NCBI RefSeq assembly: GCF_013488225.1
Contig: NZ_CP041241.1
Span: forward strand, 930,001 to 994,000
Source: Sinorhizobium mexicanum
GTDB taxonomy: Bacteria; Pseudomonadota; Alphaproteobacteria; Rhizobiales; Rhizobiaceae
Length of the DNA stretch: 64,000 nucleotides
Direction: 5' to 3'
Shown here: positions 31,948-55,682 of the stretch, in pieces
How positions within the stretch are numbered: position 1 is the first letter of the stretch
Layout: the number at the start of each line of letters is the position of its first letter
Notes under the pieces: generated by a model
What the model was told of the DNA's origin: nothing
Databases searched by the model: none
The model's input: only the letters and a program-made list of their open reading frames with translations
Made by a program: the position numbers and the translations under genes

Positions 31948-31982
31948 ATTCGTCCTCCCCCTGCCACCGGCCGGTGGCATGC

Positions 31983-33853: not shown

Positions 33854-33864
33854 GGCCGTCTCCC

Positions 33865-34761
33865 ATGGAAAAAGCGACACTCGATGAGGGGACGTTCAGC
33901 CTGGTGTGCGACTGCCGGTCGCAACTCGGTGAAAGCCCGGTCTGGAGCGAGACCGAACAGGTGCTCTACTTCGTCGACATCCGCGGCCCGTCGATCAATC
34001 GCTTCGACCCCGCGACCGGCGAACTCCAGCGCTTCATGCAGTCCGAAGAGATCGGCTGTATCGGCCTTGTCCGTGGCGGTGGGTTCATTGCCGGCCTGCG
34101 ATCCGGCATCTGGCGGCTCGACTCTCGGGGCAAGCCGATCCTGAAGCTTGCGGATAACCCGGAAGGCACCGAAACGAGCCGCTTCAACGATGGTCGCGTC
34201 GGTCCGGACGGACGGTTCTATGCGGGCACGGTGGATGAGAGCAGGCAGCAAGCGGCAAAGCTATACCGCTATGACAGCAATGGACTTGCGCCGCTGATGG
34301 AGGGGCTCATGACCTCCAATGGCCTTGCGTTCTCGCCGGACGGCAGGACGCTTTACCATGTAGACTCTCCCGTTTCGAAGGTTACGGCGCATGATTTCGA
34401 CAAATCGGCGGGTGCGATTTCAGGCGGACGTGTGTTGATCGAAATACCCGACAACCCGGCGGCGCGGCCGGACGGAAGCACGATAGATGCGGAAGGCTGC
34501 TATTGGGTGGCGATCTTCGGCGCAGCCTTGGTCCGACGCTTCTCGCCGACGGGCGAGTTGATGGCCGAATATCCTGTGCCGGTGAAGTGCCCCACGATGC
34601 CTGCCTTCGGCGGCCCGGACAGGCGCACTCTGTTCGTGACGACAGCGGGGAGCCGCAGACCTCCGGAGGAAATGGCCCAATTCCCCACATCCGGCAGCCT
34701 GTTTGCCATGCGGGCACCGGTTGCAGGCGTGCCGGAGCCATTCTTCGACGAAGACATCTGA
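33865..34761 (+). CDS. SMP-30/gluconolactonase family protein
   Basis: 298 residues from the ATG at 33865, eleven bases past the rraA-like stop. A six-bladed propeller is indicated by LGESPVWSETEQVLYFVDI (metal Glu), SRFNDGRVGPDGRFYAGT (Asn, Asp) and LMTSNGLAFSPDGRTLYHVD (Asp). These are the calcium or zinc ligands of SMP-30 lactonases, which hydrolyse aldonolactones to aldonates. No signal peptide is seen, so it is cytoplasmic. In this operon it likely opens a sugar lactone ahead of the dehydratases. An upstream in-frame start inside the previous gene is unlikely. Confidence 0.9.
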   Translation: MEKATLDEGTFSLVCDCRSQLGESPVWSETEQVLYFVDIRGPSINRFDPATGELQRFMQSEEIGCIGLVRGGGFIAGLRSGIWRLDSRGKPILKLADNPEGTETSRFNDGRVGPDGRFYAGTVDESRQQAAKLYRYDSNGLAPLMEGLMTSNGLAFSPDGRTLYHVDSPVSKVTAHDFDKSAGAISGGRVLIEIPDNPAARPDGSTIDAEGCYWVAIFGAALVRRFSPTGELMAEYPVPVKCPTMPAFGGPDRRTLFVTTAGSRRPPEEMAQFPTSGSLFAMRAPVAGVPEPFFDEDI

Positions 34762-34806: not shown

Positions 34807-34838
34807 GGCCGGCCACCCGAGTGGCCGGCCGTTCTTCT
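34807..34838. terminator. Hairpin between convergent genes
   Basis: GGCCGGCCAC (34807-34816) pairs perfectly with GTGGCCGGCC (34821-34830) across CCGA, followed by GTTCTTCT. It separates the SMP-30 gene from the convergent aldo/keto reductase and ends six bases before the latter's stop. Confidence 0.7.
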
Positions 34839-35817
34839 ATTCGAAGCCCATGATCTTGTGGGGCACATAGTGCTCCGTCAATTCCTTCAGGTCTTCCGGC
34901 GTCAGCTTGATCGTGACCGCCTCCGCGGCATCGACGATCTGGCTCTCGCGGCTGACGCCGACGATCGGAGCCGCAACGGCCGGGTTGGACAGAAGCCAGG
35001 CTATGGCGATGCGGGCGCGGGGCACGCCATGGCGCCTGGCGACATTGGCGACGGCATTGATGACCTTCGCATCGGCCTCTTCCGTATCGCCGTAGAGGAC
35101 CGGCCGCAGGATGTCGGTGCCCTTGCGCAGCGAGTCATGCCCGTCCTCGCGGGCGAGAAGGCCGCGGGCAAGGGGGCTCCACGGGATGAGGCCGACACCT
35201 TCGGCCGCGCAAAGCGGCACCATTTCCCGCTCTTCCTCGCGGTTGAGCAGGTTGTAGTGGTTCTGCATCGAGATGAAGCGCGCCCAACCCTTGCGGTCCG
35301 AAAGGTAGAGCGACTTGGCAAACTTCCAGGCATGCATGGAAGAGGCGCCGATATAGCGAACCTTTCCGATCTTCACGAGATCCGTCAGAGCTTCGAGTGT
35401 CTCTTCGATCGGCGTTACCGGATCCCAGCGATGAATCTGGTAGAGATCCACGTAGTCGGTGCCGAGGCGCCGCAGGCTATGATCGATTTCCTGCATGATC
35501 GCCTTGCGCGAGAGTCCCTTTGCATTCGGGCCGTCGCGCAGCGGAGAATTGATCTTGGTTGCCAGCACGATCTCATCGCGCTTGGCGAAGTCCTTGAGGG
35601 CGCGGCCGACAATCTCCTCGCTGGAGCCGTTGGAGTAGATGTTGGCCGTGTCGAAGAAATTGACGCCGAGCTCGATCGCCTTCTTGATCAGCGGGCGGCT
35701 GTCCTCTTCTACGAGTGTCCATTTCGGATTGCCGCGATCGGGTTCGCCGAAGGTCATGCATCCGAGGCAGATGCGCGAGACCTCGAGCCCCGAATTCCCC
35801 AGTCTGGTATATTCCAT
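34837..35817 (-). CDS. Aldo/keto reductase
   Basis: 326 residues from the ATG at 35817. The (beta/alpha)8 reductase shows LGNSGLEVSRICLGCMTFG, FFDTANIYSNGSSEE (catalytic Asp and Tyr), VLATKIN (Lys) and YVDLYQIHRWD (His). The cofactor end includes PIVGVSRESQIVDA. It reduces or oxidises a carbonyl sugar or aldehyde with NADP(H). It follows the glyoxalase gene by 14 bases on the same strand. The pairing suggests aldehyde or methylglyoxal handling linked to keto-sugar catabolism. A long frame up to 36360 is an artefact overlapping that gene. Confidence 0.9.
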   Translation of the reverse strand: MEYTRLGNSGLEVSRICLGCMTFGEPDRGNPKWTLVEEDSRPLIKKAIELGVNFFDTANIYSNGSSEEIVGRALKDFAKRDEIVLATKINSPLRDGPNAKGLSRKAIMQEIDHSLRRLGTDYVDLYQIHRWDPVTPIEETLEALTDLVKIGKVRYIGASSMHAWKFAKSLYLSDRKGWARFISMQNHYNLLNREEEREMVPLCAAEGVGLIPWSPLARGLLAREDGHDSLRKGTDILRPVLYGDTEEADAKVINAVANVARRHGVPRARIAIAWLLSNPAVAAPIVGVSRESQIVDAAEAVTIKLTPEDLKELTEHYVPHKIMGFE

Positions 35818-35831
35818 CGTCAAGACTCCGA

Positions 35832-36248
35832 TTATTTGCTTTCCTGGATAAGTTCGATGCGATAGCCATCCGGATCGTCGACGAAGGCGATCGCGGTGGT
35901 ACCGAATTTGACCGGGCCGGGCTCGCGAACGATCTTGACCCCTTCGTTCCGCATGGCCTCGCAGGCGGCGTAGATATCCGGCACGCCGACGGCGAGATGG
36001 CCGAAGCCATTGCCCTTTTCGTAGCTCTCGACGCCGTAGTTGTAGGTCAATTCGATCATCGGATCGGTCTTTTCGGCACCGTAGCCGATGAAGACGTTGG
36101 TGTAGTTGCCTTCCGGCACATCGATCGTGCGGATGACCTCCATGCCGAAGTGCTTGGAGTAGAAGTCGATCGATCGCTGCAGATCGCCGACACGGATCAT
36201 CGTGTGCATGATCCTCGGTGGCTTGGCAGTTTGGGTGGCTGTTGCCAT
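35832..36248 (-). CDS. gloA: Lactoylglutathione lyase-like protein (glyoxalase I)
   Basis: 138 residues, with AGAGGAGACAGACA before the ATG. It matches glyoxalase I: MHTMIRVGDLQRSIDFYSKH (metal His15), NVFIGYGAEKTDPMIELTYN (metal Glu), GFGHLAVGVPDI (metal His) and AFVDDPDGYRIELIQ (metal Glu). The enzyme isomerises the hemithioacetal of methylglyoxal and glutathione. It is cotranscribed with the aldo/keto reductase and divergent from the SDR at 36.4 kb. It may detoxify by-products of triose or tetrose metabolism. Confidence 0.9.
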   Translation of the reverse strand: MATATQTAKPPRIMHTMIRVGDLQRSIDFYSKHFGMEVIRTIDVPEGNYTNVFIGYGAEKTDPMIELTYNYGVESYEKGNGFGHLAVGVPDIYAACEAMRNEGVKIVREPGPVKFGTTAIAFVDDPDGYRIELIQESK

Positions 36249-36418
36249 TGTCTGTCTCCTCTATGGTGGATAGGTCGGCTACGTCGTAGCCGATGGTGAA
36301 AAAATCTTTCCAAAACAAAAACTTACCCTGGAAACGGAGAACTTTGTTATGTAAAACCATTCATATGTTGCGGAATGCAATAACAGCGTTGCCGCATGGT
36401 CCGGATGGAGGAACGGCT

Positions 36419-37201
36419 ATGGATTTGAAAGGTAAGGTGGCGCTTGTGACGGGTGCGGGCTCCGGCATCGGAAAGGCGTCGGCGCTCATGCTGGCTGCTC
36501 GAGGCGCAAGGGTCGCGGTGCTGAGCAGGACCGGGAGCGAGATACTGAAGGCGAAGGAGGAGATCGAGGCCGCTGGCGGCGAGGCGCTGGCGCTCACCGG
36601 CGATGTCAGCCTCGAGGACGACATGAAAGGCGCGGTTGAAACGCTCGTCTCGGCCTGGGGACGGCTCGACATCGTGGTCGCTAATGCCGGCATCAACGGC
36701 GTATGGGCGCCGATCGACGATCTGCAGCCGCATGAATGGGACAAGACGATCGCCGTCAATCTGCGCGGCACCTACCTCACCATTCATTGCGTCGTGCCGC
36801 ACCTGAAGCTTGCCGGCGGCGGCTCGATCGTCGTCGTTTCCTCGATCAATGGTACCCGGACCTTCACGACCGCCGGCGCGACGGCATATTCCGCCACCAA
36901 GGCGGCGCAGCTTGCCATGGTACAGCAGCTCGCGCTTGAGCTCGGAAAATCCCGCATCCGCATCAACGCGGTCTGCCCCGGCCTGATCACCACCAACATT
37001 CCCGACAGCACGATCAAACGCAATCAGGACGCCGCACGCATTCCGGTCGTCTGGCCGGAGGGCGATATTCCGATCACCGGCGGCAAGGCGGGCACGAGCG
37101 AGGACGTCGCCGAAATCATAGCATTCCTGGCGTCCGACCACGCACGCCACATCACCGGATCGCCGGTCTGGATCGACGGTGGCCAGAGCCTGCTGCGGTG
37201 A
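36419..37201 (+). CDS. Short-chain dehydrogenase/reductase
   Basis: 260 residues from the ATG at 36419, after GGAGGAACGGCT. Classical SDR motifs are complete: VALVTGAGSGIGKA (cofactor), NAGIN, VVSSING (catalytic Ser) and AYSATKAAQL (Tyr and Lys). The C-terminus ends with SPVWIDGGQSLL. An Arg after beta 2 (VLSRTG) hints at NADP use. It is probably a polyol or sugar dehydrogenase. It diverges from gloA across 36249-36418, where I see no convincing operator, and ends 32 bases before the convergent importer B ATPase. Confidence 0.9.
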   Translation: MDLKGKVALVTGAGSGIGKASALMLAARGARVAVLSRTGSEILKAKEEIEAAGGEALALTGDVSLEDDMKGAVETLVSAWGRLDIVVANAGINGVWAPIDDLQPHEWDKTIAVNLRGTYLTIHCVVPHLKLAGGGSIVVVSSINGTRTFTTAGATAYSATKAAQLAMVQQLALELGKSRIRINAVCPGLITTNIPDSTIKRNQDAARIPVVWPEGDIPITGGKAGTSEDVAEIIAFLASDHARHITGSPVWIDGGQSLLR

Positions 37202-38319: not shown

Positions 38320-38325
38320 GAATGC

Positions 38326-39243: not shown

Positions 39244-39247
39244 CGGC

Positions 39248-40129: not shown

Positions 40130-40199
40130 CGGAATTTCCCGGACAATGCGTAAGAAAAAGCGAGTGGCAGTGTCCTGCCGCTCGCGTGGCTGGAAGTTT

Positions 40200-41441: not shown

Positions 41442-41543
41442 TCTTGTCTCCTCCCATAGCGGTCCCGACACGCTGAGTTGGCAGCGCCCGGGCTTTAGTC
41501 GAACCTGTCGCGGATAAGGTTCTCCTCCTCCTCGTCCGTAGGC

Positions 41544-41604
41544 AGCGTATGCTCCAATCGCCTTTTTAGTCAACATTTACCGCAATAATATTGCGGTAAA
41601 TGTT
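41544..41604 (-). promoter_or_regulatory. 33-bp palindrome overlapping a proximal promoter of importer B
   Basis: AACATTTACCGCAAT (41572-41586) and ATTGCGGTAAATGTT (41590-41604) are perfect 15-base arms around AAT. On the minus strand the palindrome ends inside TTGACT (41573-41568), which is followed by 18 bases and TACGCT (41549-41544). It is a strong operator candidate for the LacI protein encoded just upstream. Confidence 0.6.
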
Positions 41605-41826: not shown

Positions 41827-42855
41827 TCACCCGGCCGCTTCAAGAACGCGCGCAAGCCAATCGGTCTTGCCCGCCTGCGCTGCGGATTCGCGCTCGATGA
41901 TTTCGGAAACCAGTGCGAGCCGCACCGGCGGCCGATTGCGGGCTTCGGCGCTTGCCATGCGCTCGGCGATGCAGCGCACCATGGCGGCGCCCATCTCCAC
42001 CTGCGGCGTTCTGACCGTGGTCAGCCGCGGCGACATATGGGTGGCGGAGGCGAAGTCATTGAAGCCCACGACCGAAACGTCTTCCGGGACCCGGATGCCG
42101 AGGCGCAGCAGTTCGGATATTACAGCGATTGCAATCCCGTCATGGGCACAAAAGAGTGCCGTCGGTTCCTTGCCGGAGCGAAGATACCGGAAGAAGGCGC
42201 TGCGGAATCCTTGCGATTCGTCGAAGACGATATCGTCCACCACGGCGTCTTCGACGGTCGAGGCGCCATCACGGAAGCCGCGAAAGCGTTCCGCGCGGCC
42301 CATGGGCGTTGCGCTGCCATGCACGAATGCCATGTTGCGGTGGCCGAGGCCGGCCAACATCCGTGCAACCGCGTAGCCGGATTCCCAGTCGGCACCCACG
42401 ACCTGGTCGATCCGCTCCATCGGGCTCGCATAACTCGCACAGACGACCGGCAGGCCGGTTCGCGCGGCAAGGGCGGACCATTCGGATGGGCGGGGCACCG
42501 CCAGTATGATGCCGACGATTGACGAATCCAGCGGCGCTGCGTCGTTGAGATGGCGCGCCTGACGGGGAAGAATCGCAAATCCGAGCTTCTCTCCCTCCTG
42601 TTCCGCGCCGTGCATGATGTTGAGCCAAAGCTCGCTGCTGACAGGATCGATCTCCTGCCGAACGAAGAGAATGTGCCCTGCCGTGTAGTTGACGTCCTGG
42701 TTGACGCGATAACCCATTGAATGGGCAGCCCTGATCACGCGGTTCCGGGTTGCCTCCCCAACGCCGGGTTTTCCGGACAGGGCGCGCGACACGGAAAACT
42801 TCGAAAGACCGAGACTGTCGGCAAGATCCTGAATGGTAACGCGGTTGGAAGCCAT
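41827..42855 (-). CDS. LacI-family transcriptional regulator
   Basis: 342 residues from the ATG at 42855. The HTH with hinge reads VTIQDLADSLGLSKFSVSRA then LSGKPGVGEATRNRV. The periplasmic-binding-like sensor shows HILFVRQEIDPVSSELW, GIILAVPRPSEW and DVSVVGFNDFASATHMSP. It probably senses a sugar. It lies between the importer B operon (same strand, downstream) and the divergent Rieske-led cluster. It is placed to control either side: a 33-bp palindrome precedes importer B and an inverted repeat lies in the divergent gap. Confidence 0.9.
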   Translation of the reverse strand: MASNRVTIQDLADSLGLSKFSVSRALSGKPGVGEATRNRVIRAAHSMGYRVNQDVNYTAGHILFVRQEIDPVSSELWLNIMHGAEQEGEKLGFAILPRQARHLNDAAPLDSSIVGIILAVPRPSEWSALAARTGLPVVCASYASPMERIDQVVGADWESGYAVARMLAGLGHRNMAFVHGSATPMGRAERFRGFRDGASTVEDAVVDDIVFDESQGFRSAFFRYLRSGKEPTALFCAHDGIAIAVISELLRLGIRVPEDVSVVGFNDFASATHMSPRLTTVRTPQVEMGAAMVRCIAERMASAEARNRPPVRLALVSEIIERESAAQAGKTDWLARVLEAAG

Positions 42856-42924
42856 GGCCAAACTCTGTTCTTTGTCGGTTTTGTTGTGACGCAGGAGAGG
42901 CTTAACGTCAAGTCATGCGGCAAA

Positions 42925-42957
42925 TTGCAAAACAATGTTGCGCTCCGTGTTTTGTAA
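42925..42957. promoter_or_regulatory. Inverted repeat in the lacI/Rieske divergent gap
   Basis: TTGCAAAACA (42925-42934) and TGTTTTGTAA (42948-42957) pair at nine of ten positions around a 13-base spacer. It lies 80 bases before the Rieske start and 70 bases before the lacI start. It does not obviously match the importer B palindrome. Confidence 0.35.
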
Positions 42958-43036
42958 TGTTAGCTTCCGCTCCTAACAAGATCAAAGGTCCGGCTCTCGG
43001 TGGAGGACCGTCCGGGTGCCGTTCCGGGAGGAAATC

Positions 43037-43450
43037 GTGGCGAGGCACATAGTCGCCGCTCTGGCGGAGATCCCTCCGGGATCGCAGAAGCTTGTCCATG
43101 TCAAGGGGCGGTCCATCGCCGTCTTCAACGTCAACGGCGAACTGTTCGGCATTTCCGACACCTGCCCTCACCAGGGCGGCAGCCTCGCAGCCGGCGCGAC
43201 CGTTGGGCTGACGACCTCAACGGAACCGGGAAAGTTCTGTCATTCCCGTCCGGGAGAGTTCGTCCGCTGCCCATGGCACAGCTGGGAATTCGATTTGCGC
43301 ACCGGGAAATCCTGGTGTGATCCGCGGAAATTCCGGGCGAGGCCCTACGACCTGAGTGTCGAGTCCGGCGAGGCACTGGTCGCAGGTCCGTATGTCGCCG
43401 AGACGTTCGGTGTCTCCGTCGAGGACCAGTACGTCGTCGTGGAGCTCTAG
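43037..43450 (+). CDS. Stand-alone Rieske [2Fe-2S] protein
   Basis: 137 residues from the GTG at 43037, six bases after GGGAGG; an in-frame GTG at 43016 overlaps that site. The cluster ligands are in DTCPHQGG (Cys-x-His) and VRCPWHSWEFDL (Cys-x2-His), separated by a loop with extra residues (TVGLTTSTEPGKFCHSRPGE). The protein is soluble, like Rieske ferredoxins that feed electrons to oxygenases or reductases. No oxygenase alpha subunit lies in the window. It leads a long plus-strand cluster, with the first amidohydrolase 34 bases away. Confidence 0.9.
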   Translation: MARHIVAALAEIPPGSQKLVHVKGRSIAVFNVNGELFGISDTCPHQGGSLAAGATVGLTTSTEPGKFCHSRPGEFVRCPWHSWEFDLRTGKSWCDPRKFRARPYDLSVESGEALVAGPYVAETFGVSVEDQYVVVEL

Positions 43451-43484
43451 GTCGCCACCAAGTCCGGAATGAGGAGGTTCCGTC

Positions 43485-44549
43485 TTGTCGATTTCCGATG
43501 CCATCGATTGCGATATTCATCCAGGGGTGCCAACGATCAAGGCGCTGCTGCCCTACATGAACGACTATTGGCGGGAGGCGTTCATTGCGCGGGGGCAGGA
43601 TAATTTCCAGCCGGCAAGCTACCTGCCGAACTCGCCGATCGCCTGCCGGTCCGACTGGCGCGATGGCGACGCCATTCCAGGCAGCAACTTCGATCTCCTG
43701 CAAAAGCATGCGCTGGATGGCTTCAGCGCCCGCTTTGCGATCTGTAATGTCCTTTACGGCGGGTCTTTCTCGATCAGCGAAACGATGGGCGCCGCCATCT
43801 GCTCGGCAGTCAATGACTGGGTGAGGGCGGCATGGCTGGCTCGCGATCCGCGGCTGCGCGCGTCGATCGTGGTGCCGACCCAGAACCCGCGGCTTGCGGT
43901 CGAGGAAATCGAACGGTTGGCGGGGGATCGTCGTTTCGTGCAGATCCTCATGCCGGTGGCGCTCGACATGATGCTCGGCAAGCAGCATTACTGGCCGATT
44001 TTCGAGGCGGCGACCCGTCACGATTTACCGATCGGTCTCCACGCCGGCAGCCTTTACCGTTACGCCCCGACGACGAATGGCTGGCCGAGCCATTATCTGC
44101 AGGACTATGTCAGCAACAATCATGCGTTCGAAAGCCAGCTTCTCAGCCTCATTTCCCAGGGCGTGTTCGTCAAGTTTCCCGAGTTGAAGATCGTTTTGAT
44201 CGAAAGCGGCGTGACGTGGCTTCCAGGCTTCCTCTGGCGCGCGCGCAAGACATGGCGCGCGGTGCGTCCGGAAGTGCCGTGGGTGGACGAATCCCCGATC
44301 GAGATCGTGCGCCGGCACGTGCGCCTCACGGCCCAGCCCATCGATGGCCCCGGCGATCCGGCAATCCTTGAGCGGGTGCTGAACCAGATCGGCTCGGACG
44401 ACATGCTGCTCTTCGCCACCGACTACCCGCACTGGCAGTTCGACGCCGATCGCGTGCTTCCCGAGGGCGTATCGGCTCGCCTCATCGAGAAGATGACGCA
44501 CGACAATCCGCTCGCCACTTATCCGAGACTGAGGGAGACGATCCAATGA
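43485..44549 (+). CDS. Amidohydrolase-2 family metal-dependent enzyme, first of a pair
   Basis: 354 residues from a TTG at 43485, after AGGAGGTTCCGTC. TIM-barrel amidohydrolase (PF04909, the ACMSD/lactonase group): Asp10-x-His12 in AIDCDIHPG, His186 in LPIGLHAGSL, and Asp313 in LLFATDYPHWQFD. The first metal motif is DxH rather than HxH. Members decarboxylate or hydrolyse carbon-carbon or lactone bonds. Its stop overlaps the start of a second, related amidohydrolase (ATGA). The two share the DCDIHP and ATDYPHW blocks and probably act as a heteromer or on successive substrates; this is inference. Confidence 0.85.
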   Translation: MSISDAIDCDIHPGVPTIKALLPYMNDYWREAFIARGQDNFQPASYLPNSPIACRSDWRDGDAIPGSNFDLLQKHALDGFSARFAICNVLYGGSFSISETMGAAICSAVNDWVRAAWLARDPRLRASIVVPTQNPRLAVEEIERLAGDRRFVQILMPVALDMMLGKQHYWPIFEAATRHDLPIGLHAGSLYRYAPTTNGWPSHYLQDYVSNNHAFESQLLSLISQGVFVKFPELKIVLIESGVTWLPGFLWRARKTWRAVRPEVPWVDESPIEIVRRHVRLTAQPIDGPGDPAILERVLNQIGSDDMLLFATDYPHWQFDADRVLPEGVSARLIEKMTHDNPLATYPRLRETIQ

Positions 44550-45658
44550 CCCCGGCCGATCAAATCCTTGAGCGACCGGTACAGGGCGCCGCGAGGCTTC
44601 AGTTCGTCGACTGCGATATCCATCCGTCGCTGAAGCACAAAAAGGCGTTGCACCCCTATCTCGAGAAGCGTTGGCGCGATCACCTCGACACCTATGGCAG
44701 CCTGGCGCATTGCGTCTATGCCGGACGAGGCGGCCCCTATCCGCGCTTCACGCCCGAGACAGCGCGCCGCGACGCGTGGCCGCCGAACGGAAACCCGCCC
44801 GGTTCTGACCTGGAATTTATGCAGGTCCAGCATCTCGACGCGCACAACGTCAAGTTCGGCATCCTGCAACCGATCGTCGGCGCCAACAATGCCCGCAACA
44901 CGGACCTGTCGGCAGCGCTCTGCACGGCCACCAACGACTGGCAGGTGGACGAGTTTACTTCGAAGGACAGACGGCTGAAGGCATCGATCCACATCGGCGC
45001 GGAGGATGCCGAACTTGCCGTCGAGGAAATCGAGCGTCGTGCCGGAGACCGGAATTTCGCGCAGATCCAGCTCGGTTCGCGCTCCCTTGAGCCGATCGGC
45101 CGCAAGCGCTACTGGCCGATCTTCGAGGCGGCCGAGCGCAACGACCTGCCGGTCGGCTTCCATGTCGGCGGCCCGTCGCCCTATGCACCGTCGCCAAGCG
45201 GCTGGCCCGATTACTATATCGAAGATCATCATGTGTTGACCCACAGCGCCCATGCGCAGGTTGCGAGCATGATCCTCGAAGGCGTCTTCGAGCTTTTCCC
45301 GAAGCTCCGCATCGTCATGATCGAGGCCGGCTTTGCCTGGGTGCCATCGCTTGGCTGGCGGCTCGACAATCATTGGCGGAAGATGCGAAGCGAAACGCCG
45401 CTCTGCAAAAGGCCGCCCTCCGAATATCTCAGGCAGAACGTCTGGTTCACCACCCAGCCCGCCGAAGAGCCGGAGCACCGCGAAGACCTGCGCCTGCTCT
45501 TCGACCTCATCGGTTTCGACCGCATGATGTTTGCGACCGACTATCCGCATTGGGACTTCGACGATCCACAGCGAGCGATCGTGATGCCGATGACCGCCGC
45601 CGAGCGGCAAATGCTGTTCCATGACAACGCCATGAATTTCTATGCCAATCTCGATTGA
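44546..45658 (+). CDS. Amidohydrolase-2 family metal-dependent enzyme, second of a pair
   Basis: 370 residues. The same fold as the gene before it: Asp24-x-His26 in VDCDIHPSLKHKKALHPYL, a later His in LPVGFHVGGPSPYAPS, and Asp in MMFATDYPHWDFDDP. The C-terminal end differs (MLFHDNAMNFYANL), as do the substrate-facing loops. It is translationally coupled to the first amidohydrolase and 12 bases upstream of dhaK. A lactonase, decarboxylase or C-C hydrolase role is possible. The unusual pairing is the informative part. Confidence 0.85.
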   Translation: MTPADQILERPVQGAARLQFVDCDIHPSLKHKKALHPYLEKRWRDHLDTYGSLAHCVYAGRGGPYPRFTPETARRDAWPPNGNPPGSDLEFMQVQHLDAHNVKFGILQPIVGANNARNTDLSAALCTATNDWQVDEFTSKDRRLKASIHIGAEDAELAVEEIERRAGDRNFAQIQLGSRSLEPIGRKRYWPIFEAAERNDLPVGFHVGGPSPYAPSPSGWPDYYIEDHHVLTHSAHAQVASMILEGVFELFPKLRIVMIEAGFAWVPSLGWRLDNHWRKMRSETPLCKRPPSEYLRQNVWFTTQPAEEPEHREDLRLLFDLIGFDRMMFATDYPHWDFDDPQRAIVMPMTAAERQMLFHDNAMNFYANLD

Positions 45659-45670
45659 AAGACCTGTTTC

Positions 45671-46669
45671 ATGAAGAAGCTCATCAACGATCCTGCACAT
45701 TATGTCGACGAAACCCTCGATGGCCTGACGCTCGCATTTCCGTCGCTCGTGCGCGACGGCGCGGCTGGCCGTGTCATACGGCGCGCGGAGGGCGTGACCA
45801 GAGGGAAGGTTGGCATCGCTTCTGGTGGCGGTTTCGGCCATCTGCCACTTTTCACCGGCTATGTTGGCCGTGGCCTCATCGATAGCTGCGCGATCGGCAA
45901 CGTTTTCGAGGGCCCAAACATCGACAGCTGCGTAGATGCGATCCGACTCGCCGATGGTGGTCGGGGTGTGCTGCGGCTTTACGGCAATTACGGCGGCGAC
46001 AGGATGAATTTCGATATGGCCGGCGAGGTGCTCGAGGACGAAGGCATCCGTTGCACGACCGTGCTCGGCACCGACGACATCGCCAGTGGCGGGCCAGACG
46101 AAATCGGCCGTCGGCGCGGTGTGGCCGGGTTGATCTATGCCTACAAGGCTGCCGGAGCCTCTGCCGACAGAGGGGCCGACCTGGAGGAGGTGACTCGGAT
46201 CGCCGCAAAAGCGGTCGCTGCGACCCGCACGATCGGTGTCGGGCTTGCTCCCTGCCGGCTGCCGTCGGCCGCAAAGCCGAGCTTCGAGCTTGCGGAAGAC
46301 GAGATTGAAATGGGGATCGGTATCCACGGTGAACCGGGCATATGGCGCGACAAACTCAGGAGCGCGGATGCGATCGCCGACGAAATGGTCGATCGGTTGC
46401 TGGCCGATCTGCCCGCGCAGACAGGCGGCGAGGTCTCGGTTCTGGTCAACGGTCTCGGCGCCACCCCTCAGGAGGAACTCTTCATCCTTTATCGGCGGGT
46501 CAGGAAACGGCTTGACGATGCGGGCGTGAACGTCGTTCAGCCGCTCGTCGGCAACTACGTGACTTCGATGGAAATGCAGGGAGCATCGGTCAGCCTCTTC
46601 CATCTGGACGAGGAATTGAAGACGCTGCTGCGCGCCCCGGCCGAATGCCCGTTCTGGAGGGTCGACTGA
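45671..46669 (+). CDS. dhaK: Dihydroxyacetone kinase DhaK-type subunit (possible keto-tetrose kinase)
   Basis: 332 residues. DhaK binds the ketose covalently: His57 in SGGGFGHLPL, Asp110 in NYGGDRMNFDMA, and the hemiaminal-forming His219 in GIGIHGEPG are all in place. The canonical substrate loop GHEPAHAG is changed to GHLPLFTG, so a substrate other than dihydroxyacetone is plausible. The DhaK/DhaL pair without a PTS DhaM suggests an ATP-dependent kinase, as in L- or D-erythrulose kinases. The stop overlaps dhaL (TGATG). Confidence 0.85.
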   Translation: MKKLINDPAHYVDETLDGLTLAFPSLVRDGAAGRVIRRAEGVTRGKVGIASGGGFGHLPLFTGYVGRGLIDSCAIGNVFEGPNIDSCVDAIRLADGGRGVLRLYGNYGGDRMNFDMAGEVLEDEGIRCTTVLGTDDIASGGPDEIGRRRGVAGLIYAYKAAGASADRGADLEEVTRIAAKAVAATRTIGVGLAPCRLPSAAKPSFELAEDEIEMGIGIHGEPGIWRDKLRSADAIADEMVDRLLADLPAQTGGEVSVLVNGLGATPQEELFILYRRVRKRLDDAGVNVVQPLVGNYVTSMEMQGASVSLFHLDEELKTLLRAPAECPFWRVD

Positions 46670-47301
46670 TGGAACTGACGGTTTTCCAGATCGCCGAGGG
46701 CGTCAGCCGCGCCACCCGGGCCATGGCCGGCCTGGAGCAGGAATTGAACGCCGCAGACGCGAAGCTGGGTGATGGCGACACGGGCTCCATGCTCGCCCGC
46801 GTTATTGGCGCCATGGCGGCATCGGAGCCGCAAGCGGCAAGATCGGTGAGCGACGTCTTCGGCAGGCTTGCCCGCGCCGGCATGTCGGCAACGGGCTCCA
46901 GCCTGGGGACGCTTTTCGCCAGTTCGCTCCTGGCTCTGTCGAAGCAGACAAGAGAATGGGAACGCGTCGATTGGGAGGACCTTTCCGGTCTCCTTGCCGC
47001 GGCGCGCGACGGGATGATGGCGAGGGGCAACGCCAAGCTCGGCGACAAGACGGTGCTGGACGCGCTGGATGCCGTTGCTGCCGCGGTGGCCGGAAAGGTT
47101 GATGCCGAAGGAGCTGCGCGTGCCGCCCGGGAGGCGGTCGACCGGGTTATACTTGAGTTCCGCGGCCGGCCTTGTCGTATGGGGCGGGCAAAGTTCTTTG
47201 CCGAGAAAAGTGTGGGTCTCGACGATCCCGGCATGTTGGCCTTTGCCGCGTTGACAAAGGCGGTGGCGAAAATCCCCGCAAAGCGCAACCTAACACCCTA
47301 A
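46669..47301 (+). CDS. dhaL: Dihydroxyacetone kinase DhaL-type nucleotide-binding subunit
   Basis: 210 residues from the ATG at 46669 (overlap with dhaK). The two-magnesium, nucleotide-binding aspartates are Asp30, Asp35 and Asp37 in NAADAKLGDGDTGS. The family usually has GDGDHG, so His is replaced by Thr38. The second block GNAKLGDKTVLDALDAV is present. It binds ATP and phosphorylates the ketose held by DhaK. After this gene the spacing opens to 233 bases before the ABC importer genes, where repeats suggest a second promoter. Confidence 0.85.
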   Translation: MELTVFQIAEGVSRATRAMAGLEQELNAADAKLGDGDTGSMLARVIGAMAASEPQAARSVSDVFGRLARAGMSATGSSLGTLFASSLLALSKQTREWERVDWEDLSGLLAAARDGMMARGNAKLGDKTVLDALDAVAAAVAGKVDAEGAARAAREAVDRVILEFRGRPCRMGRAKFFAEKSVGLDDPGMLAFAALTKAVAKIPAKRNLTP

Positions 47302-47393
47302 CAAGCTTAGCACTCCACCGCGCTATCAACGTATTTTTACGCAAGGCGAGTTGCCGGTGACGGCGATTTCTCCCCATAGCCACCGGGAAAGCG

Positions 47394-47485
47394 TAGGTAA
47401 AGCTAAAGAAAATAACAGAACGCGAATTTCTGCTTGCATTGTGTTAGGTAAATGGTTTGAGTGTTGATGCTGGACGTTAGGTAAA
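47394..47485 (+). promoter_or_regulatory. Three TAGGTAAA direct repeats before importer D
   Basis: TAGGTAAA occurs at 47394-47401, 47445-47452 and 47478-47485. The last two extend to GTTAGGTAAAYGG. They lie in the 233-base gap between dhaL and the first permease, so they may be regulator sites for an internal promoter. Confidence 0.4.
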
Positions 47486-47534
47486 CGGAAGGCGACGGAG
47501 GGTCTGGAGGGACCCGCTGTAGGAGGAGGAAAAA

Positions 47535-48482
47535 ATGGTGGCTCAACAGTTCGAGCCGACAGGCGGATATGTCGACATGGTCGGCGAGGACGCCATGTCC
47601 GAGCGTCGCAATGCGTGGATCAAATTTCAGGACCGGATGTTCGTACCGCTGACGACCGTTCCGACGATCATCGCGAGCCTTCTCGTCTTCGGCATCCCGC
47701 TCACTTTCTCGTTGTTGCTGAGCTTTCAGGGCTGGACAATCGACAGCGCGCTGCTGGCCGGCAGATTCGTCGGTCTCGCCAACTACGAGGATCTCTTCAC
47801 CGATACGCTGTTTCGGTCGAGCCTCCTGCTGACGATTGGCTACACGCTCTCGACAGTGACGCTGGAACTCCTGTGCGGTCTTGGCGTGGCACTTCTTCTC
47901 AACAGCCGCGTGCCTTTCGTGCGCATCTTCCGCACCGCGCTCATCATTCCCATGATGATCACGCCGATCGTGGCCGCACTGACCTGGAAGCTGCTGCTCG
48001 ATCCAAGCTACGGGCTGGTCAACGCCATCCTAGGCACCAAGACGGTCTGGCTCGGAGACCCCAATCTGGCACTGATTGCCGTCGGCATCGTCAACATCTG
48101 GCAGAACACGCCGTTCGTCGCGATCCTGCTGCTCGCCGGTCTGCAGTCGCTGCCGAGCGAGCCGGTCGAGGCGGCCGCTGTGGATGGCGCGAACTCCTGG
48201 CAGACCTTCCGCCATGTGACACTGCCACTCCTTATGCCCTATGTGGTCGTGGCAGTGCTTCTCCGCACGATCTTCGAGTTCCGCTCCTTCGAGAACATCT
48301 GGGTGATGACGGGCGGTGGCCCGGCGAATGCGACAAAGCTGCTCTCCGTCTACACCTTCGAGGCGTCGTTCCTGTCCTTCGACCTGACGCTCGCGGCTGC
48401 CTCGTCCTGGGTTATGCTCTTCATCGTGCTGATCTTCTGCGTTTTCTTCATCCTCGCCACCGAGCGGAAGGAGATCCAGTGA
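47535..48482 (+). CDS. Sugar ABC importer permease, MalF type (importer D)
   Basis: 315 residues, with GGAGGAGGAAAAA before the ATG. The first ~35 residues are cytoplasmic; six spans begin TIIASLLVFGIPLTFSLLL. The EAA loop reads EPVEAAAVDGANSWQTFRHV then TLPLLMP, and TGGGPANATKLLSVY follows. It is the first of permease, permease, binding protein, ATPase, an order unlike importers A and B. The later in-frame ATG at 47598 is a possible shorter start. Confidence 0.9.
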   Translation: MVAQQFEPTGGYVDMVGEDAMSERRNAWIKFQDRMFVPLTTVPTIIASLLVFGIPLTFSLLLSFQGWTIDSALLAGRFVGLANYEDLFTDTLFRSSLLLTIGYTLSTVTLELLCGLGVALLLNSRVPFVRIFRTALIIPMMITPIVAALTWKLLLDPSYGLVNAILGTKTVWLGDPNLALIAVGIVNIWQNTPFVAILLLAGLQSLPSEPVEAAAVDGANSWQTFRHVTLPLLMPYVVVAVLLRTIFEFRSFENIWVMTGGGPANATKLLSVYTFEASFLSFDLTLAAASSWVMLFIVLIFCVFFILATERKEIQ

Positions 48483-49327
48483 TGTCCGGTTTCGCCCGCG
48501 GCAAGCGCCGCAAGTTCATCAGCTACGTGCTGACCTACGCAGGCCTCGTAAGCCTTTTCCTGGTTTTCGTATTCCCGCTTCTATGGATCGTCGGTATCTC
48601 GCTCAAGACGCGCGAGCAGATCTTCACCAACCCGCCGGTGTTCTTCTGGATACCGACCTTTGAGAACTATGTGCACGTGCTGACGCAGTCGGACTTCCTG
48701 GCGTCCTTCGGCAATTCGCTCGTCGTCACGACGGCCTCGGTGACGCTTTCCCTGCTTATAGGCATCCCGGCGTCCTACACCTTCGCGCGCTTCCATTTTC
48801 GGGGCCGTGGTGTGGCGATGATCACGCTCCTGATCATGCGGATGCTGCCGCCGGTCGCGATCCTCCTTCCGCTCTTCGTGCTCTTCAAGGCAGTCGGACT
48901 GTCCAACACGCGCATTTCCGTCATCATCGCCTACACGACCTTCAGCCTGCCGCTGATCGTCTGGGTGATGAAGGACTATTTCGCCAACCTGCCGAAGGAG
49001 CTGGAGGAGGCCGCCTATATTGACGGCGCTTCCAGGATGCTCGCCTTCCGCAGAATCGTGCTGCCGCTCGCTCGGCCGGGCATTGTCACCGCCGCGATCC
49101 TGTCGCTGCTGCTCGCCTGGAACGACTTCATCTTCGCGGCGATCCTCACAAACAACGCGACGCGTACCTCGCCGGTGCTGCTCGCAAGCTATGCCGGTGG
49201 GGAGACCGGCACCAACTGGGGAGCGATCACCGCCTCGGGCGTGCTCGTCGTCATCCCCGTCATCATCTTCTCGCTGATCGTCCAGAAGCACCTAGTGCAG
49301 GGACTGTCGTCGGGAACCGTGAAGTGA
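48482..49327 (+). CDS. Sugar ABC importer permease, MalG type (importer D)
   Basis: 281 residues; the ATG overlaps the previous stop (TGATG). Spans begin YAGLVSLFLVFVFPLLWIVG. The EAA loop reads ELEEAAYIDGASRMLAFRRI then VLPLARPG. It is the CUT1 partner permease. A frame running through from 47615 in this phase is an artefact over the first permease. Confidence 0.9.
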   Translation: MSGFARGKRRKFISYVLTYAGLVSLFLVFVFPLLWIVGISLKTREQIFTNPPVFFWIPTFENYVHVLTQSDFLASFGNSLVVTTASVTLSLLIGIPASYTFARFHFRGRGVAMITLLIMRMLPPVAILLPLFVLFKAVGLSNTRISVIIAYTTFSLPLIVWVMKDYFANLPKELEEAAYIDGASRMLAFRRIVLPLARPGIVTAAILSLLLAWNDFIFAAILTNNATRTSPVLLASYAGGETGTNWGAITASGVLVVIPVIIFSLIVQKHLVQGLSSGTVK

Positions 49328-49353
49328 ATGTGTCTGCAGCAACGGAGGAGGAA

Positions 49354-50706
49354 ATGGGAATGGAGAAGAACAAGGGAACGTATGGCGGACCAGCTATCAG
49401 CCGCCGCAGCATGATGATCGGTTCGGCGGCGACCATCGCCGGCGCGGGGCTGATGAGCTCGTCGCTCTTCACGCCGGCGCTTGCCCAGAGCAAGCCGCAG
49501 AAGCTCACCGTACTCGGCGACAGCGCGCCGTGGAAGGGCACGATCGTTGAAGATGCCATTCCGGCCTTCACCAAGGAGACAGGCATCGAGGTCGAATATA
49601 TCCAGTTGCCGAACGAGCCGCTCATTACCCGCGCCCGCGCCGAACTGACCAGTGGCAGCACGACGAGCTTCGACGTCATGCAGATGGGCGCCTCGATGAT
49701 CGGCTGGATGCATCCGTATATGGAAGACGTCAACGAGCTCCTGAAGAAGGCTGGCGGGAAGTACGCCGCCGATTTCGGCATGGACGAATTCTCGCAGGCG
49801 TCGCTCGACCTCGCCAGCATCGACGGCGTCCTGCGCGGCGTGCCCTACCGCAGCACCACCTATATCCTGCACTACCAGCCGGCTCTCCTGGAAGCGGTCG
49901 GCATCAAGGCCCCGCCGACCACATTCGCCGAATATCTCGATGCGGCCCAGAAGCTGACCGAGGCAGGCAAGCCGAACCGTTTCGGTGTGGGCTACTGCGC
50001 CCGTCAGGGTGGGGCTATCGTCGATCATTTCGGTCCCTACCTTCTCTCGGCAGGCGGCGGCTTTTACGACAGCAAGACGAAGGACATCTGGATCAACAAT
50101 GCGAAGTCGCTGGCCGGCCTCGAATTCTACGCAAGCCTGCTCAACAAGCACAATGTGGTGCCGCAGGACGCGCTCACGTGGGAATGGGATGAAATCATCG
50201 CCAACGGCCAGAACGACCGTTACGCGATGGCGATCACGCTCAACGCCTCCGCTACCCCCATCAACAGGTCCGACAAGTCCAAGACCAAGGGCAAGTGGAA
50301 ATGGGCGATGGTTCCGGGTCTTGAGAGCGCGGCCGACAGCCGCTCCTCGCTCGGCGGCTGGAGTTTTGCGGTTCCGTCCAAGGGTGCTCATACCGGCTGG
50401 GCCTTCGAGTTCGTGCAGTTCATCACCAGCCGCGAATGGGCGAAGCGTTCGATGGAAAAGGGCAATGCCTCGGCGCGCCTTTCCGTCCTAACGGATCCGG
50501 AGGTCGTCAACACCTACGGCTTCACAGGCGTGATGGCCGACCAGCTGAAGACCGCAATCGCCAATCCGCGCGATGCGTTCTGGGGCGCCGTGGAGGCGCA
50601 GCTTCGCGCCGGTCTTTCCAAAACGCTGCTCGGTCAGGCGTCGCCGAAGGACGCGATGGACGAGGTCGCGACCGGCTGGGAGCGCACGATGCGCCGCGCG
50701 GGCTGA
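49354..50706 (+). CDS. Sugar ABC importer binding protein with Tat-like signal (importer D)
   Basis: 450 residues from the ATG at 49354, directly after GGAGGAGGAA; starts at 49324 and 49360 are alternatives. The leader has a twin-arginine motif ([18 protein letters not shown]) and an ALA-Q cleavage site, suggesting Tat export of a folded protein, unusual beside Sec-type importers A and B. The body is a family-1 binding protein ([39 protein letters not shown]). It supplies importer D, whose substrate should feed the Rieske/amidohydrolase/DhaKL enzymes or the enolase-superfamily gene. Confidence 0.85.
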
Positions 50707-50765
50707 TCGAATTGCCGGGCGGAATATCGCCCGCCCGGCTTGTCCCATATAGAAAGGAGAGGACC

Positions 50766-51842
50766 ATGGCTTCCGTTCAGATGACAGAGGTCAGGAAGAG
50801 CTTCGGCGCCGTGGATGTCATCCATGGTATCGATCTCAAGATCGAGGATGGCGCCTTCGTGGCGTTGGTCGGTCCGTCCGGCTGCGGGAAGTCGACCCTT
50901 CTGCGGATGATCGCGGGGCTCGAGGAAACGTCGGGCGGAGAAATCGCCATCGGTAATCGGGTGGTCAACGATCTGACGCCTCGCGAGCGTAATATCGCGA
51001 TGGTTTTCCAGAATTATGCGCTCTATCCGCATATGACGGTTGCGGAAAACATGGGCTTCAATCTGAAGCTCGCCAAGAAGCCGCAGGCCGAGATCGATGC
51101 TCGCGTGAGCGAAGCGGCCAGGATGCTCGGCCTCACCCCGCTGCTCGACCGCCGCCCCTCGCAACTGTCCGGGGGACAGCGCCAGCGCGTCGCCATGGGG
51201 CGCGCCGTGGTGCGCAAACCGCAAGTCTTCCTGTTCGACGAGCCTCTATCCAACCTCGACGCCAAACTGCGCGTCCAAATGCGTTCCGAGATTAAGGGCC
51301 TGCACCAGAAGGTCAGGACAACTTCCATCTATGTCACCCACGACCAGATCGAGGCAATGACGCTCGCGGACCATATCGTCGTCATGCATGGCGGCCGCAT
51401 CGAGCAGCAGGGACATCCGATGGAGCTTTATCGCAGGCCCGCCAACCTGTTCGTTGCGGGCTTTATCGGTACTCCGGCCATGAATTTCGTCGACGCCGTC
51501 GGTGGCAGCGACGATCGAGGTGCCTTGGCGAAGCTCGCGGGCGGCGAAGCGATCCGTGTCGATGGCGTGCGACTGGAAGAGGGCAGGCCGGTGACGCTCG
51601 GCTTCCGTCCAGAGCATCTCGCAACCCATGGTGCCGGCACGCGCCTTAAAGGCCCGGCGCGTTTCGTGGAGCCCACGGGGGCGCTGACGCATGTCACCTT
51701 CGATCTCGGCGGGCACAATATCGTTGCTGTCATCGATGGTGAGCATCAAGTGGCGACCGGCCAGGCTTTCGAGGCCTCGGTCGCGCCGGAACTCGTGCAT
51801 GTTTTTGATCGCCAGTCCGGGATGCGGCTGAACGCGGCCTAG
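50766..51842 (+). CDS. Sugar ABC importer ATPase, MalK/UgpC type (importer D)
   Basis: 358 residues from the ATG at 50766, after AGAAAGGAGAGGACC. Walker [10 protein letters not shown] (about 37-45), [41 protein letters not shown] and THDQIEAM are all intact, followed by a C-terminal regulatory domain. It energises importer D and resembles the importer A ATPase more than the importer B one. A longer frame from 50436 overlaps the binding protein. Confidence 0.9.
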
Positions 51843-51915
51843 GTGGAACATCGAGGCAAAAACCGACTTCAAGGGCCGGTTTCCCAAGGTCGGCCTTCAA
51901 ACCAGGAGATTGAAA

Positions 51916-53268
51916 GTGAACAAGCCCATCAACGCGGCCTCCACGCTAGAGGCGGTCGAGAATGCCGTGCGGACGCATTCTCGCCCCTCGGACATCCGTA
52001 TCACCGACATGCGCATCGCCGTCGTGACGGGGATATGCTATTACCCGATCATCCGCATCGACACCAATCAGGGCGTCTACGGGCTTGGCGAGGTTCGCGA
52101 TGGCGGGCATCCGGAAAGTGCGCTGCGGCTCAAGCATTTCCTGCTCGGCCAGAATCCCTGCAATGTCGACATGATCTTCAACGCGCTGCGGCTCTACGGC
52201 GGTGACGGGCGCGAAGGAGGCGGAGTTTCCGGCATCGAGATCGCGCTCTGGGATCTTGTCGGCAAGATCTACGGCGTGCCCTGCCACCAGTTCTTCGGAG
52301 GAAAGTATCGCGACAGCGTCCGCATCTACGGCGATACGCCTGCGCCCGCAGAGCTGACGCCCGAGGCCTACGCCAAGGCTGTCCGCGCGCGCGCCGACAT
52401 GGGTCTCACCTTCATCAAGTTCGACCTGCCGCCCAAGCTCTTCGAAACGACGGAAGGTGCGCTCATCGGCGCGGCTACGAAACACGAATACGATCTCGGC
52501 AGGAGCACCCGCGCGCCGGGCTCCGGACGCGGCGCCAAGATTTCGGAAAAGGGGATCGAAACCGCGGTCGAAATCGTGCGGGCGGTTCGTGCCGAGGTCG
52601 GCAGTGAGATCTCGCTCTGCGTCGATCATTTCGGCGAAGGCTACGTCACTGCGGATGAGGCGATCCGCATCGGCAAGGCGCTTGAACCGTTCAACCTTGC
52701 GTGGATCGAGGACCCGGTCATCTGGCACGATATCAAGGGACACAAGAAGGTTGCGGACGCCCTGCTGACGCCGGTCGCGGGCGGTGAGGATCTCTATCTT
52801 GTCGACGGTTTCCGCGAGGCGATCGAAACCCAGGCCTTCGATATCCTGCACCCCGATCTCCTGACGTCGGGCGGCATGCTGGAGACAAAGCGCATCGCCG
52901 ACTACGGCGCGCGCTACGGCCTCGCTACCGCACTGCATTCGTGCTGCTCGCCGATCGGCTTCATGGCGAACGTCCACTGCGGTGCTGCGATCAACAGCCT
53001 GCTGGCGGTCGAACATCATGGCCTTGACGTGCCGTTTTGGGAGGAACTGGTTACGGGTCTCGATCCGAAATATCTCGACGAAGGCTACGTAAAGGTTCCT
53101 GATCTGCCAGGGCTTGGCATCGAACTCAATCTGGAGGCTGTAAAGGCCAACCTGCGCGAACCGGACGCACTGTTTCTGCCGACCGAGGAGTGGAACAAGC
53201 GTAAGGCAGGCTTCGAACGGGTCGAACCGCCGCGCTATCAGACCCAGCTTATCCGTGGTCGACGCTAG
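51916..53268 (+). CDS. Enolase-superfamily sugar-acid dehydratase (MR/MLE family)
   Basis: 450 residues from a GTG at 51916, seven bases after AGGAG; a TTG at 51910 sits too close to that site. It is longer than the usual ~400 because of an N-terminal extension and a mid-domain insertion (TKHEYDLGRSTRAPGSGRG). Metal ligands are probably in LCVDHFGEGYV, LAWIEDPVIWHD and AGGEDLYLV, with LHSCCSPIGFMANVHC near the active site. Sugar-acid dehydration is likely; the substrate is unknown. It lies 73 bases after the importer D ATPase on the same strand and closes the cluster. Confidence 0.85.
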   Translation: MNKPINAASTLEAVENAVRTHSRPSDIRITDMRIAVVTGICYYPIIRIDTNQGVYGLGEVRDGGHPESALRLKHFLLGQNPCNVDMIFNALRLYGGDGREGGGVSGIEIALWDLVGKIYGVPCHQFFGGKYRDSVRIYGDTPAPAELTPEAYAKAVRARADMGLTFIKFDLPPKLFETTEGALIGAATKHEYDLGRSTRAPGSGRGAKISEKGIETAVEIVRAVRAEVGSEISLCVDHFGEGYVTADEAIRIGKALEPFNLAWIEDPVIWHDIKGHKKVADALLTPVAGGEDLYLVDGFREAIETQAFDILHPDLLTSGGMLETKRIADYGARYGLATALHSCCSPIGFMANVHCGAAINSLLAVEHHGLDVPFWEELVTGLDPKYLDEGYVKVPDLPGLGIELNLEAVKANLREPDALFLPTEEWNKRKAGFERVEPPRYQTQLIRGRR

Positions 53269-54461: not shown

Positions 54462-54556
54462 TTTTCGTTCCCCTTTTCAGCGGCACACTTTCTTCACGCG
54501 GGCTGCCGCTTTTCGTTCGCGTGACTGGAATTCCGAGCCTCCGGTTGCCCCAAGGC

Positions 54557-55672: not shown

Positions 55673-55682
55673 GGTTCTCCCG

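Follow-up and report, generated by a model that had tools for sequence, protein, structure and literature searches.

We analysed a 64,000-nucleotide stretch of Sinorhizobium mexicanum DNA (contig NZ_CP041241.1, positions 930,001 to 994,000; referred to herein as the window), which carries an operon of ten genes, all on the + strand, within 43037–53268. Judged from sequence comparison, the products of its first three genes, a Rieske protein and two amidohydrolase-fold proteins that we call AH1 and AH2, in all likelihood form an oxygenase of the AibG/AibH1/AibH2 type, that is, an amidohydrolase-related dinuclear oxygenase (ARO), and this oxygenase probably catalyses the first step of a carbohydrate pathway under LacI control. 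The original prediction for this DNA had placed the gene set on one strand at these coordinates, and the open reading frames and a Pfam scan bear this out: all nine of the operon proteins scanned passed the curated Pfam cut-offs, and the tenth, permease 2, was identified by homology. The operon and its regulator are as follows.

41827..42861, −: LacI-family regulator, conserved divergent to the operon (PF00356/PF13377; 67% to the Microvirga LacI)
43037..43450, +: Rieske [2Fe-2S] ferredoxin, AibG-like, motif C-P-H ... C-P-W-H (PF00355, 3.6e-13; homologue alignment)
43485..44549, +: AH1, AibH1-like candidate partner subunit, six ligands kept, Gln at AibH2 position 342 (6m1w_A, 285 bits)
44546..45658, +: AH2, AibH2-like candidate catalytic subunit, six ligands and Asp at 342 (6m1w_B, 272 bits)
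45671..46669, +: DhaK, ketose-binding kinase subunit (PF02733, 4.4e-109; alignments)
46645..47301, +: DhaL, nucleotide-binding kinase subunit, GDGDTG motif (PF02734, 1.2e-26; the start may be 46672)
47535..48482, +: importer permease 1 (PF00528)
48479..49327, +: importer permease 2 (homology to the L035, L036 and L137 permeases)
49324..50706, +: solute-binding protein, twin-arginine signal ISRRSMMIG read by eye (PF01547, 2.4e-28)
50766..51842, +: importer ATPase, UgpC/MalK type (NF008653, 491 bits versus a cut-off of 432)
51910..53268, +: MR/MLE enolase-superfamily enzyme, probable sugar-acid dehydratase (PF13378, 2.1e-50)

The genes are closely packed throughout, those for AH1 and AH2 overlapping by 4 nt, except for a 233-nt gap between the end of the DhaL gene (47301) and the start of permease 1 (47535). 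The open reading frame of the Rieske protein covers 43016–43450, and most aligned homologues begin at the position of the GTG at 43037, in agreement with the start given in the original prediction. That of the ATPase covers 50436–51842, with a start at about 50766 by homology. The closest solved protein to the solute-binding protein is a trehalose/maltose-binding protein.

The amidohydrolase pair and its Rieske partner

AH1 and AH2 both have the PF04909 fold; against solved proteins, AH1 scored highest with AibH1 and AH2 with AibH2, as listed above. In Rhodococcus wratislaviensis, 2-aminoisobutyrate (Aib) is hydroxylated by AibH1H2, which is supplied by a Rieske ferredoxin, AibG, and a reductase, AibF (PMC7782822). 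AibH1H2 requires Mn, and a Mn/Fe cofactor has been assigned in AibH2 (PMC10401708), facts on AibH1H2 being restated in a 2025 review (PMC12141560). Related proteins beside small Rieske proteins have been named AROs (PMC10811679), and such small Rieske neighbours mark the class (PMC10811679, PMC10401708).

When AH1 and AH2 were aligned with AibH1, AibH2 and SfbO, AH2 was found to keep the six metal ligands D25, H27, H211, E265, D337 and H340 together with the second-sphere D342, and its DYPHxD motif is the ligand motif of SfbO. AH1 keeps the six ligands and has Gln at position 342, where AibH1 has His. Across related loci, all seven residues were present in 119 of 119 AH2-type rows and the six ligands in 117 of 117 AH1-type rows, 115 of which have no Asp or Glu at 342 (Gln in 101, His in 12, Tyr in 2, Asp in 2); rows were labelled by best BLAST match, and some genes were fetched twice and hence counted twice. 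Both Asp-342 rows represent a single protein, a single-chain homologue from the S. mexicanum genome itself. In a tree of 72 rows, AH1 and AibH1 (35 rows) are split from AH2, AibH2 and SfbO (37 rows) with support of 100/99. AibH1, AibH2 and SfbO form long branches in this tree, and the single-chain protein, an AH1 by its BLAST label, is placed next to SfbO on the AH2 side; this join was flagged as possibly false.

The Rieske protein carries the C-x-H ... C-x2-H motif, and its gene is adjacent to those of AH1 and AH2. Since the best matches are AibH1 and AibH2, and AH2 but not AH1 combines the ligands with the second-sphere Asp, we assign the three proteins to the AibG/H1/H2-type AROs; AH1 and AH2 are very probably two subunits of an oxygen-activating metalloenzyme with the Rieske protein as partner. 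The pair would catalyse O2-dependent C–H hydroxylation with a Mn/Fe or Fe2 cofactor. The original prediction had described a Rieske protein without an oxygenase; given the grouping with AibH1/AibH2 and the ligands, the oxygenase appears instead to be the amidohydrolase pair. A Rieske oxygenase elsewhere in the operon was considered and rejected, as no Pfam family of a classical alpha subunit (Rieske plus mononuclear iron) was found in a scan of 20 window proteins, nine of them from the ten-gene operon. Reading the substrate from the SfbO pocket residues was also tried and abandoned: only positions 232 and 235 were usable, and position 280 was dropped because the typed SfbO segment lacked the Tyr given in the paper.

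Candidates for the electron supply come from relatives and from the rest of the genome. In the Microvirga terrae version of the cluster (locus L137), a gene annotated as a PDR/VanB-family oxidoreductase lies directly 3' of the DhaL gene. It is plausibly the counterpart of AibF, which we take to be a reductase of this type. In the S. mexicanum genome, a PDR-type candidate at C1:1769818 is 37% to the Microvirga reductase and lies beside another ARO, and the best of the FAD-type candidates is at C4:669933 (38%). This second ARO (C1 ~1768087–1770670; L115 8088–10670) consists of consecutive genes for a Rieske protein, the single-chain ARO with Asp 342 and the PDR-type reductase, behind amino-acid-type ABC importer, amidase-like and aminotransferase-like genes identified by eye. 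The importer-oxygenase cluster of Mesorhizobium B2-1-8 contains an extra Rieske-type ferredoxin and an HcaD-like FAD reductase (L138 11017–12562), an electron supply that differs from the PDR reductase of Microvirga.

Conservation, distribution and the wider island

The order of the operon and the divergent LacI gene are kept in five genomes, that of the window included, and in partly rearranged form in Microvirga (AH2 percentages are relative to the window).

Xaviernesmea oryzae (L035): order kept, AH2 91%
Rhizobium mayense (L036): order kept, AH2 85%
Rhizobium sp. SSA_523, plasmid (L141): order kept, AH2 87%
Same-genus genome G1173 (L147/L148): order kept, AH2 95%
Microvirga terrae (L137): partly rearranged, AH2 69%

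The original prediction had named lack of conservation of this order as one outcome that would count against it; the order is retained beyond what chance would give, but the genomes that have it are few. The M. terrae plasmid, from a genus annotated as Methylobacteriaceae, holds the oxygenase, DhaKL, PDR-family reductase, importer, LacI, MR, RraA-type aldolase, aldo/keto reductase (AKR) and short-chain dehydrogenase (SDR) within 16.4 kb, with DhaKL between AH2 and the reductase gene. Relative to the window operon, its Rieske protein is 58%, AH1 68%, DhaK 78%, DhaL 54%, the permeases 63% and 72%, the binding protein 57%, MR 77% and LacI 67%; its ATPase is 58% to the operon ATPase and about as similar to a second window ATPase at 25 kb. 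Its RraA (74%), AKR (78%) and SDR (72%) match window genes upstream of the operon, where the gene set reaches to at least 33113 and includes further enzymes at 33.1–37.2 kb.

33113..33853, +: RraA-type aldolase (PF03737, 1.3e-34; NF006093, 289 bits versus a cut-off of 208; 74% to Microvirga)
33826..34761, +: SMP-30/gluconolactonase-type lactonase (PF08450, 4.7e-79; 76% in L141, 95% in L148)
34837..35832, −: AKR (PF00248; 78% to Microvirga)
35832..36248, −: glyoxalase I, lactoylglutathione lyase (TIGR00068, 161 bits versus a cut-off of 120)
36293..37201, +: SDR dehydrogenase (PF13561; 72% to Microvirga; the real start is probably downstream, near 36416)

With PF03737 and an Arg-Asp motif, whose role we take to be that in RraA-type aldolases, the product of 33113–33853 belongs to this family by sequence, and its aldolase activity is predicted. 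RraA and AKR were found in L036, L141 and L148; L035, which as fetched starts inside the upstream region, shows AKR, glyoxalase and SDR.

Within the genus, AH2 was matched at E ≤ 1e-60 in 4 of 33 genomes and at E ≤ 1e-200 in two (the window's own and G1173), so that the gene set is sporadic there. In even samples, not censuses, of wider groups (own genome included), AH2 was matched in 27 of 397 genomes of the order at E ≤ 1e-90 and in 1 of 385 of the class at E ≤ 1e-140, the window's own; the MR enzyme in 6 of 394 of the family at E ≤ 1e-100; and DhaK in 2 of 385 of the class at E ≤ 1e-100. The matches listed gave at least 80 related loci, some represented by short stretches. Among the 80 listed, a Rieske match of ≥40% was found in 61, the same importer permease at ≥50% in 12 (L035, L036 and ten Acetobacteraceae/Roseomonadaceae loci), and DhaK, DhaL and MR at ≥40% only in L035 and L036. 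The AH2s linked to this importer (15 rows, Microvirga and Mesorhizobium B2-1-8 included) lie on one side of a branch with support of 97/96, opposite 20 others; left out of this count are eight rows inside the branch, whose flanks have no importer or are short, and two outside it.

Two further arrangements were seen. Five Acetobacteraceae loci (L037, L046, L049, L051 and L054) have the importer and an AH1-AH2 pair and no Rieske gene in the stretch, so the oxygenase electrons must come from elsewhere. Five others (L056, L058, L059, L072 and L118, including Neorhizobium, Xaviernesmea and Rhizobium populisoli) have the order AH1-AH2-AH1-AH2-Rieske near ABC-importer genes, that is, two tandem oxygenase pairs and one Rieske gene.

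A shared sequence motif was also found. Six sites in R. mayense and Microvirga were used to derive a one-sided 18-mer, near TTACCTAACAAAACGCAA, which scores in those two by construction; the sites, chosen by hand after two earlier motif searches, precede Rieske, permease, AKR, MR and binding-protein genes. Twenty shuffles of 100-base blocks served as controls. The motif defines one further feature of the window.

47408..47451, no strand: candidate operator, two inverted 18-mers upstream of the importer genes, strong at 47434 and weak at 47408 (motif trained on L036 and L137)

The site at 47434, between DhaL and the importer genes, is the best in the window at 25.8 bits (highest of 20 shuffles, 17.9), and that at 47408 scores 11.1 bits. 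L035 (22.5 bits; shuffles 16.5) and L147 (28.4; 13.8) also have sites before importer genes; the best sites of L148 (15.1; 16.0) and L141 (12.5; 15.1) do not exceed the shuffles. As the window, L035 and L147 are close relatives, their matches amount to one independent confirmation. We infer that LacI binds this motif. A palindromic LacI operator with a central CG was tried and gave no consistent match, and a search for a two-fold symmetric motif gave an unclear consensus.

Other gene groups flank the set. A second ABC importer on the − strand (37234–41576) lies between the SDR and LacI genes and is kept in L035, L141 and L148; the R. mayense and Microvirga stretches, as fetched, did not show it. 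A separate ABC importer of the sugar type and a second MR/MLE enzyme (30751–32181) occupy 24–32.8 kb, together with, as read by eye, a 377-aa protein resembling UxuA-type mannonate dehydratase and an IclR-type regulator; this second MR/MLE gene recurs beside or near the homologue of the first in L130, L132 and L134. Downstream, 53460–58060 encodes, by eye, a glycine-betaine-type binding protein, an MR/MLE enzyme, a zinc alcohol dehydrogenase and a LysR regulator, and is syntenic in G1173.

Proposed pathway and alternative readings

The residues GH, NYGGD and GIHGEPG of DhaK and GDGD of DhaL are kept in alignments, and we take them to include the hemiaminal His and Asp of DhaK and the metal-binding Asp of DhaL. 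Both proteins score below the NCBIfam equivalog cut-offs for DhaK and DhaL; as both domains and the catalytic residues are present, we place them in the DhaKL kinases on sequence grounds. The MR/MLE enzyme keeps the Asp/Glu/Glu motif and a His-Asp dyad, presumably its metal ligands and its catalytic pair, and is probably a sugar-acid dehydratase. It does not reach the cut-off of any specific NCBIfam dehydratase listed, and identity as a galactonate or mannonate dehydratase was rejected on this basis.

From these families, ligands, gene sets and their conservation we infer the reactions, their order, the metals, the regulation and the substrate. The ABC importer would take up a sugar-like compound. 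Electrons would pass from NADH through a reductase, encoded elsewhere here and beside DhaL in Microvirga, and the Rieske ferredoxin to AH2, which, as a Mn/Fe or diiron monooxygenase, would hydroxylate a C–H bond of the imported carbohydrate derivative. The unstable hydroxylated product would break into a sugar and a short carbonyl fragment, and DhaKL would phosphorylate a C3 ketose or triose. The sugar would be oxidised by SDR/AKR, its lactone opened by SMP-30 and the acid dehydrated by the MR/MLE enzyme, after which RraA would cleave the dehydrated acid to pyruvate and a C3 or similar unit. The view in the original prediction of one catabolic system, with import, oxidation or dehydration and a C3 ketose kinase, we judge to be right. 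In a more specific version, C–H hydroxylation by the Mn/Fe or diiron oxygenase would break a glycosidic or ether linkage in a sugar conjugate brought in by the importer, sending dihydroxyacetone to DhaKL and the sugar to a non-phosphorylative route. We consider this version unlikely, and the specific idea that we prefer, oxidative cleavage of a glyceryl-type ether with release of dihydroxyacetone, is equally so.

Five loci with an MR homologue (42–68%) and no oxygenase, L130–L134, bear on the source of the DhaKL substrate. None of the five has DhaKL in the 12–19.5 kb fetched, the part of those genomes covered; RraA is present in four and an orthologue of the second window MR/MLE gene in three. 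This absence of DhaKL hints that its substrate comes from the oxygenase step. All five operon genomes have DhaKL, by the definition of the operon. We lean only weakly towards a C3 fragment from the oxygenase step, because other ARO loci have no DhaK and relatives of DhaK occur without an oxygenase.

Several observations weigh against the proposed pathway. A tight link between DhaKL and AROs is put in doubt: other ARO loci, including Neorhizobium and the ten Acetobacteraceae/Roseomonadaceae importer loci, have no DhaK; DhaK relatives from Shinella (77%), Azospirillum (73%) and Devosia (65%) lie in clusters without an oxygenase in all three examined; and in Mesorhizobium B2-1-8 a distance of 8 kb, which includes an amino-acid importer and a reversed gene, separates DhaKL from the oxygenase. 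All ten Acetobacteraceae/Roseomonadaceae importer and oxygenase loci are without DhaK, DhaL, MR, RraA, AKR and SDR at ≥40%, and five of them without a Rieske match at ≥40%, some stretches being short. No reductase gene was found in the window with PF00175 and two relatives' reductases as queries, and the closest own-genome candidates (37%, PDR type; 38%, FAD type) lie outside it. The R. mayense stretch fetched showed no SDR, and the SMP-30 protein present in Microvirga is not similar to that of the window. SSA_523 lacks the 18-mer, and the window has weaker sites, at 42945 (16.1 bits, LacI-Rieske gap) and 36337 (10.2 bits, in the glyoxalase-SDR gap only if SDR begins near 36416), that are not above the shuffles. 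Finally, no gene points specifically to a glyceryl ether.

The three clusters with DhaK relatives (65–77%; L139, L140 and L142) also encode a dihydrodipicolinate-synthase-family enzyme, an IclR regulator and a tripartite tricarboxylate transporter, and possibly represent a further undescribed DhaKL pathway.

The strongest alternative is nested in the proposed pathway, so that their odds overlap: the oxygenase and sugar pathway would be the same, with DhaKL acting downstream on glyceraldehyde or a ketone from the RraA aldolase, and the oxygenase would remove a small group (e.g. by O-demethylation) or make a keto-sugar that AKR reduces. MR, RraA, SMP-30, SDR and AKR would make up a complete non-phosphorylative set, a C3 product would fit RraA-family aldolases and triose kinases, and glyoxalase I is flanked by AKR and SDR in the window, L035, L141 and L148. 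The five MR loci, which have no DhaKL in the stretch fetched although four have RraA, and the position of the Microvirga DhaKL between AH2 and the reductase, argue the other way. We give this variant a substantial chance, somewhat short of even.

It is considerably less probable that the island holds separate units, the oxygenase and importer being one system and MR/RraA/SMP-30/AKR/SDR another sugar-acid pathway. MR, RraA and the second MR/MLE enzyme do occur together without the oxygenase in L130, L132 and L134, and the ten Acetobacteraceae/Roseomonadaceae loci have importer and oxygenase without MR, RraA, AKR or SDR matches of ≥40%; against this, MR, RraA, AKR, SDR, LacI, DhaKL and the oxygenase recur together, rearranged, in Microvirga, and the 18-mer precedes several of these units. 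A non-sugar substrate of the amino acid or sulfonate type, as in the AibH1H2 or SfbO surrogate reactions, is very unlikely: the ARO substrates reported in the papers cited are Aib and sulfonate surrogates (PMC7782822, PMC10811679), and CoA-linked compounds for PtmU3 (PMC7782822), but the importer and LacI here are of sugar type and AH2 has His and Leu in place of the two sulfate-binding Arg of SfbO. The reading of the pair in the original prediction as enzymes of lactone or C–C cleavage, for which the Pfam family name and the decarboxylases or hydrolases among other PF04909 members would speak, has next to no chance, since hydrolase, lactonase and lyase roles conflict with the dinuclear-oxygenase ligand set, the tree and the Rieske partner, no NCBIfam model matches AH1 or AH2 at E ≤ 0.001, and a lactonase (SMP-30) and an aldolase (RraA) are encoded by other genes ~10 kb upstream.

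Relation to known systems and significance

The system resembles AibH1H2GF in its two amidohydrolase-fold subunits with all metal ligands, its Rieske ferredoxin and its AH1/AH2 split, and, in the Microvirga version, the presence of a gene annotated as a reductase. It differs in that a sugar importer, LacI, DhaKL, MR/MLE, RraA, SMP-30 and AKR replace the Aib genes, and in that the window operon yielded no reductase gene. With SfbO and other AROs it shares the ligand motif and a small Rieske protein alongside; unlike SfbO, AH2 has neither sulfate-binding Arg and is paired with an AH1 subunit, and its neighbourhood suggests a pathway, whereas natural substrates were hard to infer for the AROs of that paper (PMC10811679). 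The MR/MLE and RraA sugar-acid clusters (L130, L132–L134) are similar in the MR homologue, RraA and sugar-type importer genes, but have no oxygenase or DhaKL in the stretches fetched. The sulfoquinovose SMO pathway and rhizopine MocDEF are also oxygenase-initiated routes for sugar-like compounds with an importer and a reductase or Rieske partner, and in the SMO case an AKR; their oxygenase folds are unrelated to that of the window pair, and neither is known to include DhaKL or RraA.

In keeping with the original prediction, which knew of no described pathway with this set, no paper on the full gene set was found in the open-licence literature, as judged from listings; the kind of enzyme is known, and its pathway context was not found in that literature. 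AROs are a young enzyme class. In 2023, 555 uncharacterised AibH2-like proteins were counted, with few co-occurring genes from which to infer function (PMC10401708), and for the 2024 ARO candidates genomic data gave no easy lead to the natural substrates (PMC10811679). The island described here places one ARO clade beside an importer and its binding protein, a regulator, and enzymes of the kinase, dehydratase, aldolase and lactonase types, so that the binding protein offers a way to search for the native substrate. If the proposed pathway is correct, it would be an oxygenase-initiated carbohydrate pathway built on the amidohydrolase fold, and if the oxygenase does cleave the linkage of a sugar conjugate, it would represent an oxygenolytic alternative to a glycosidase.

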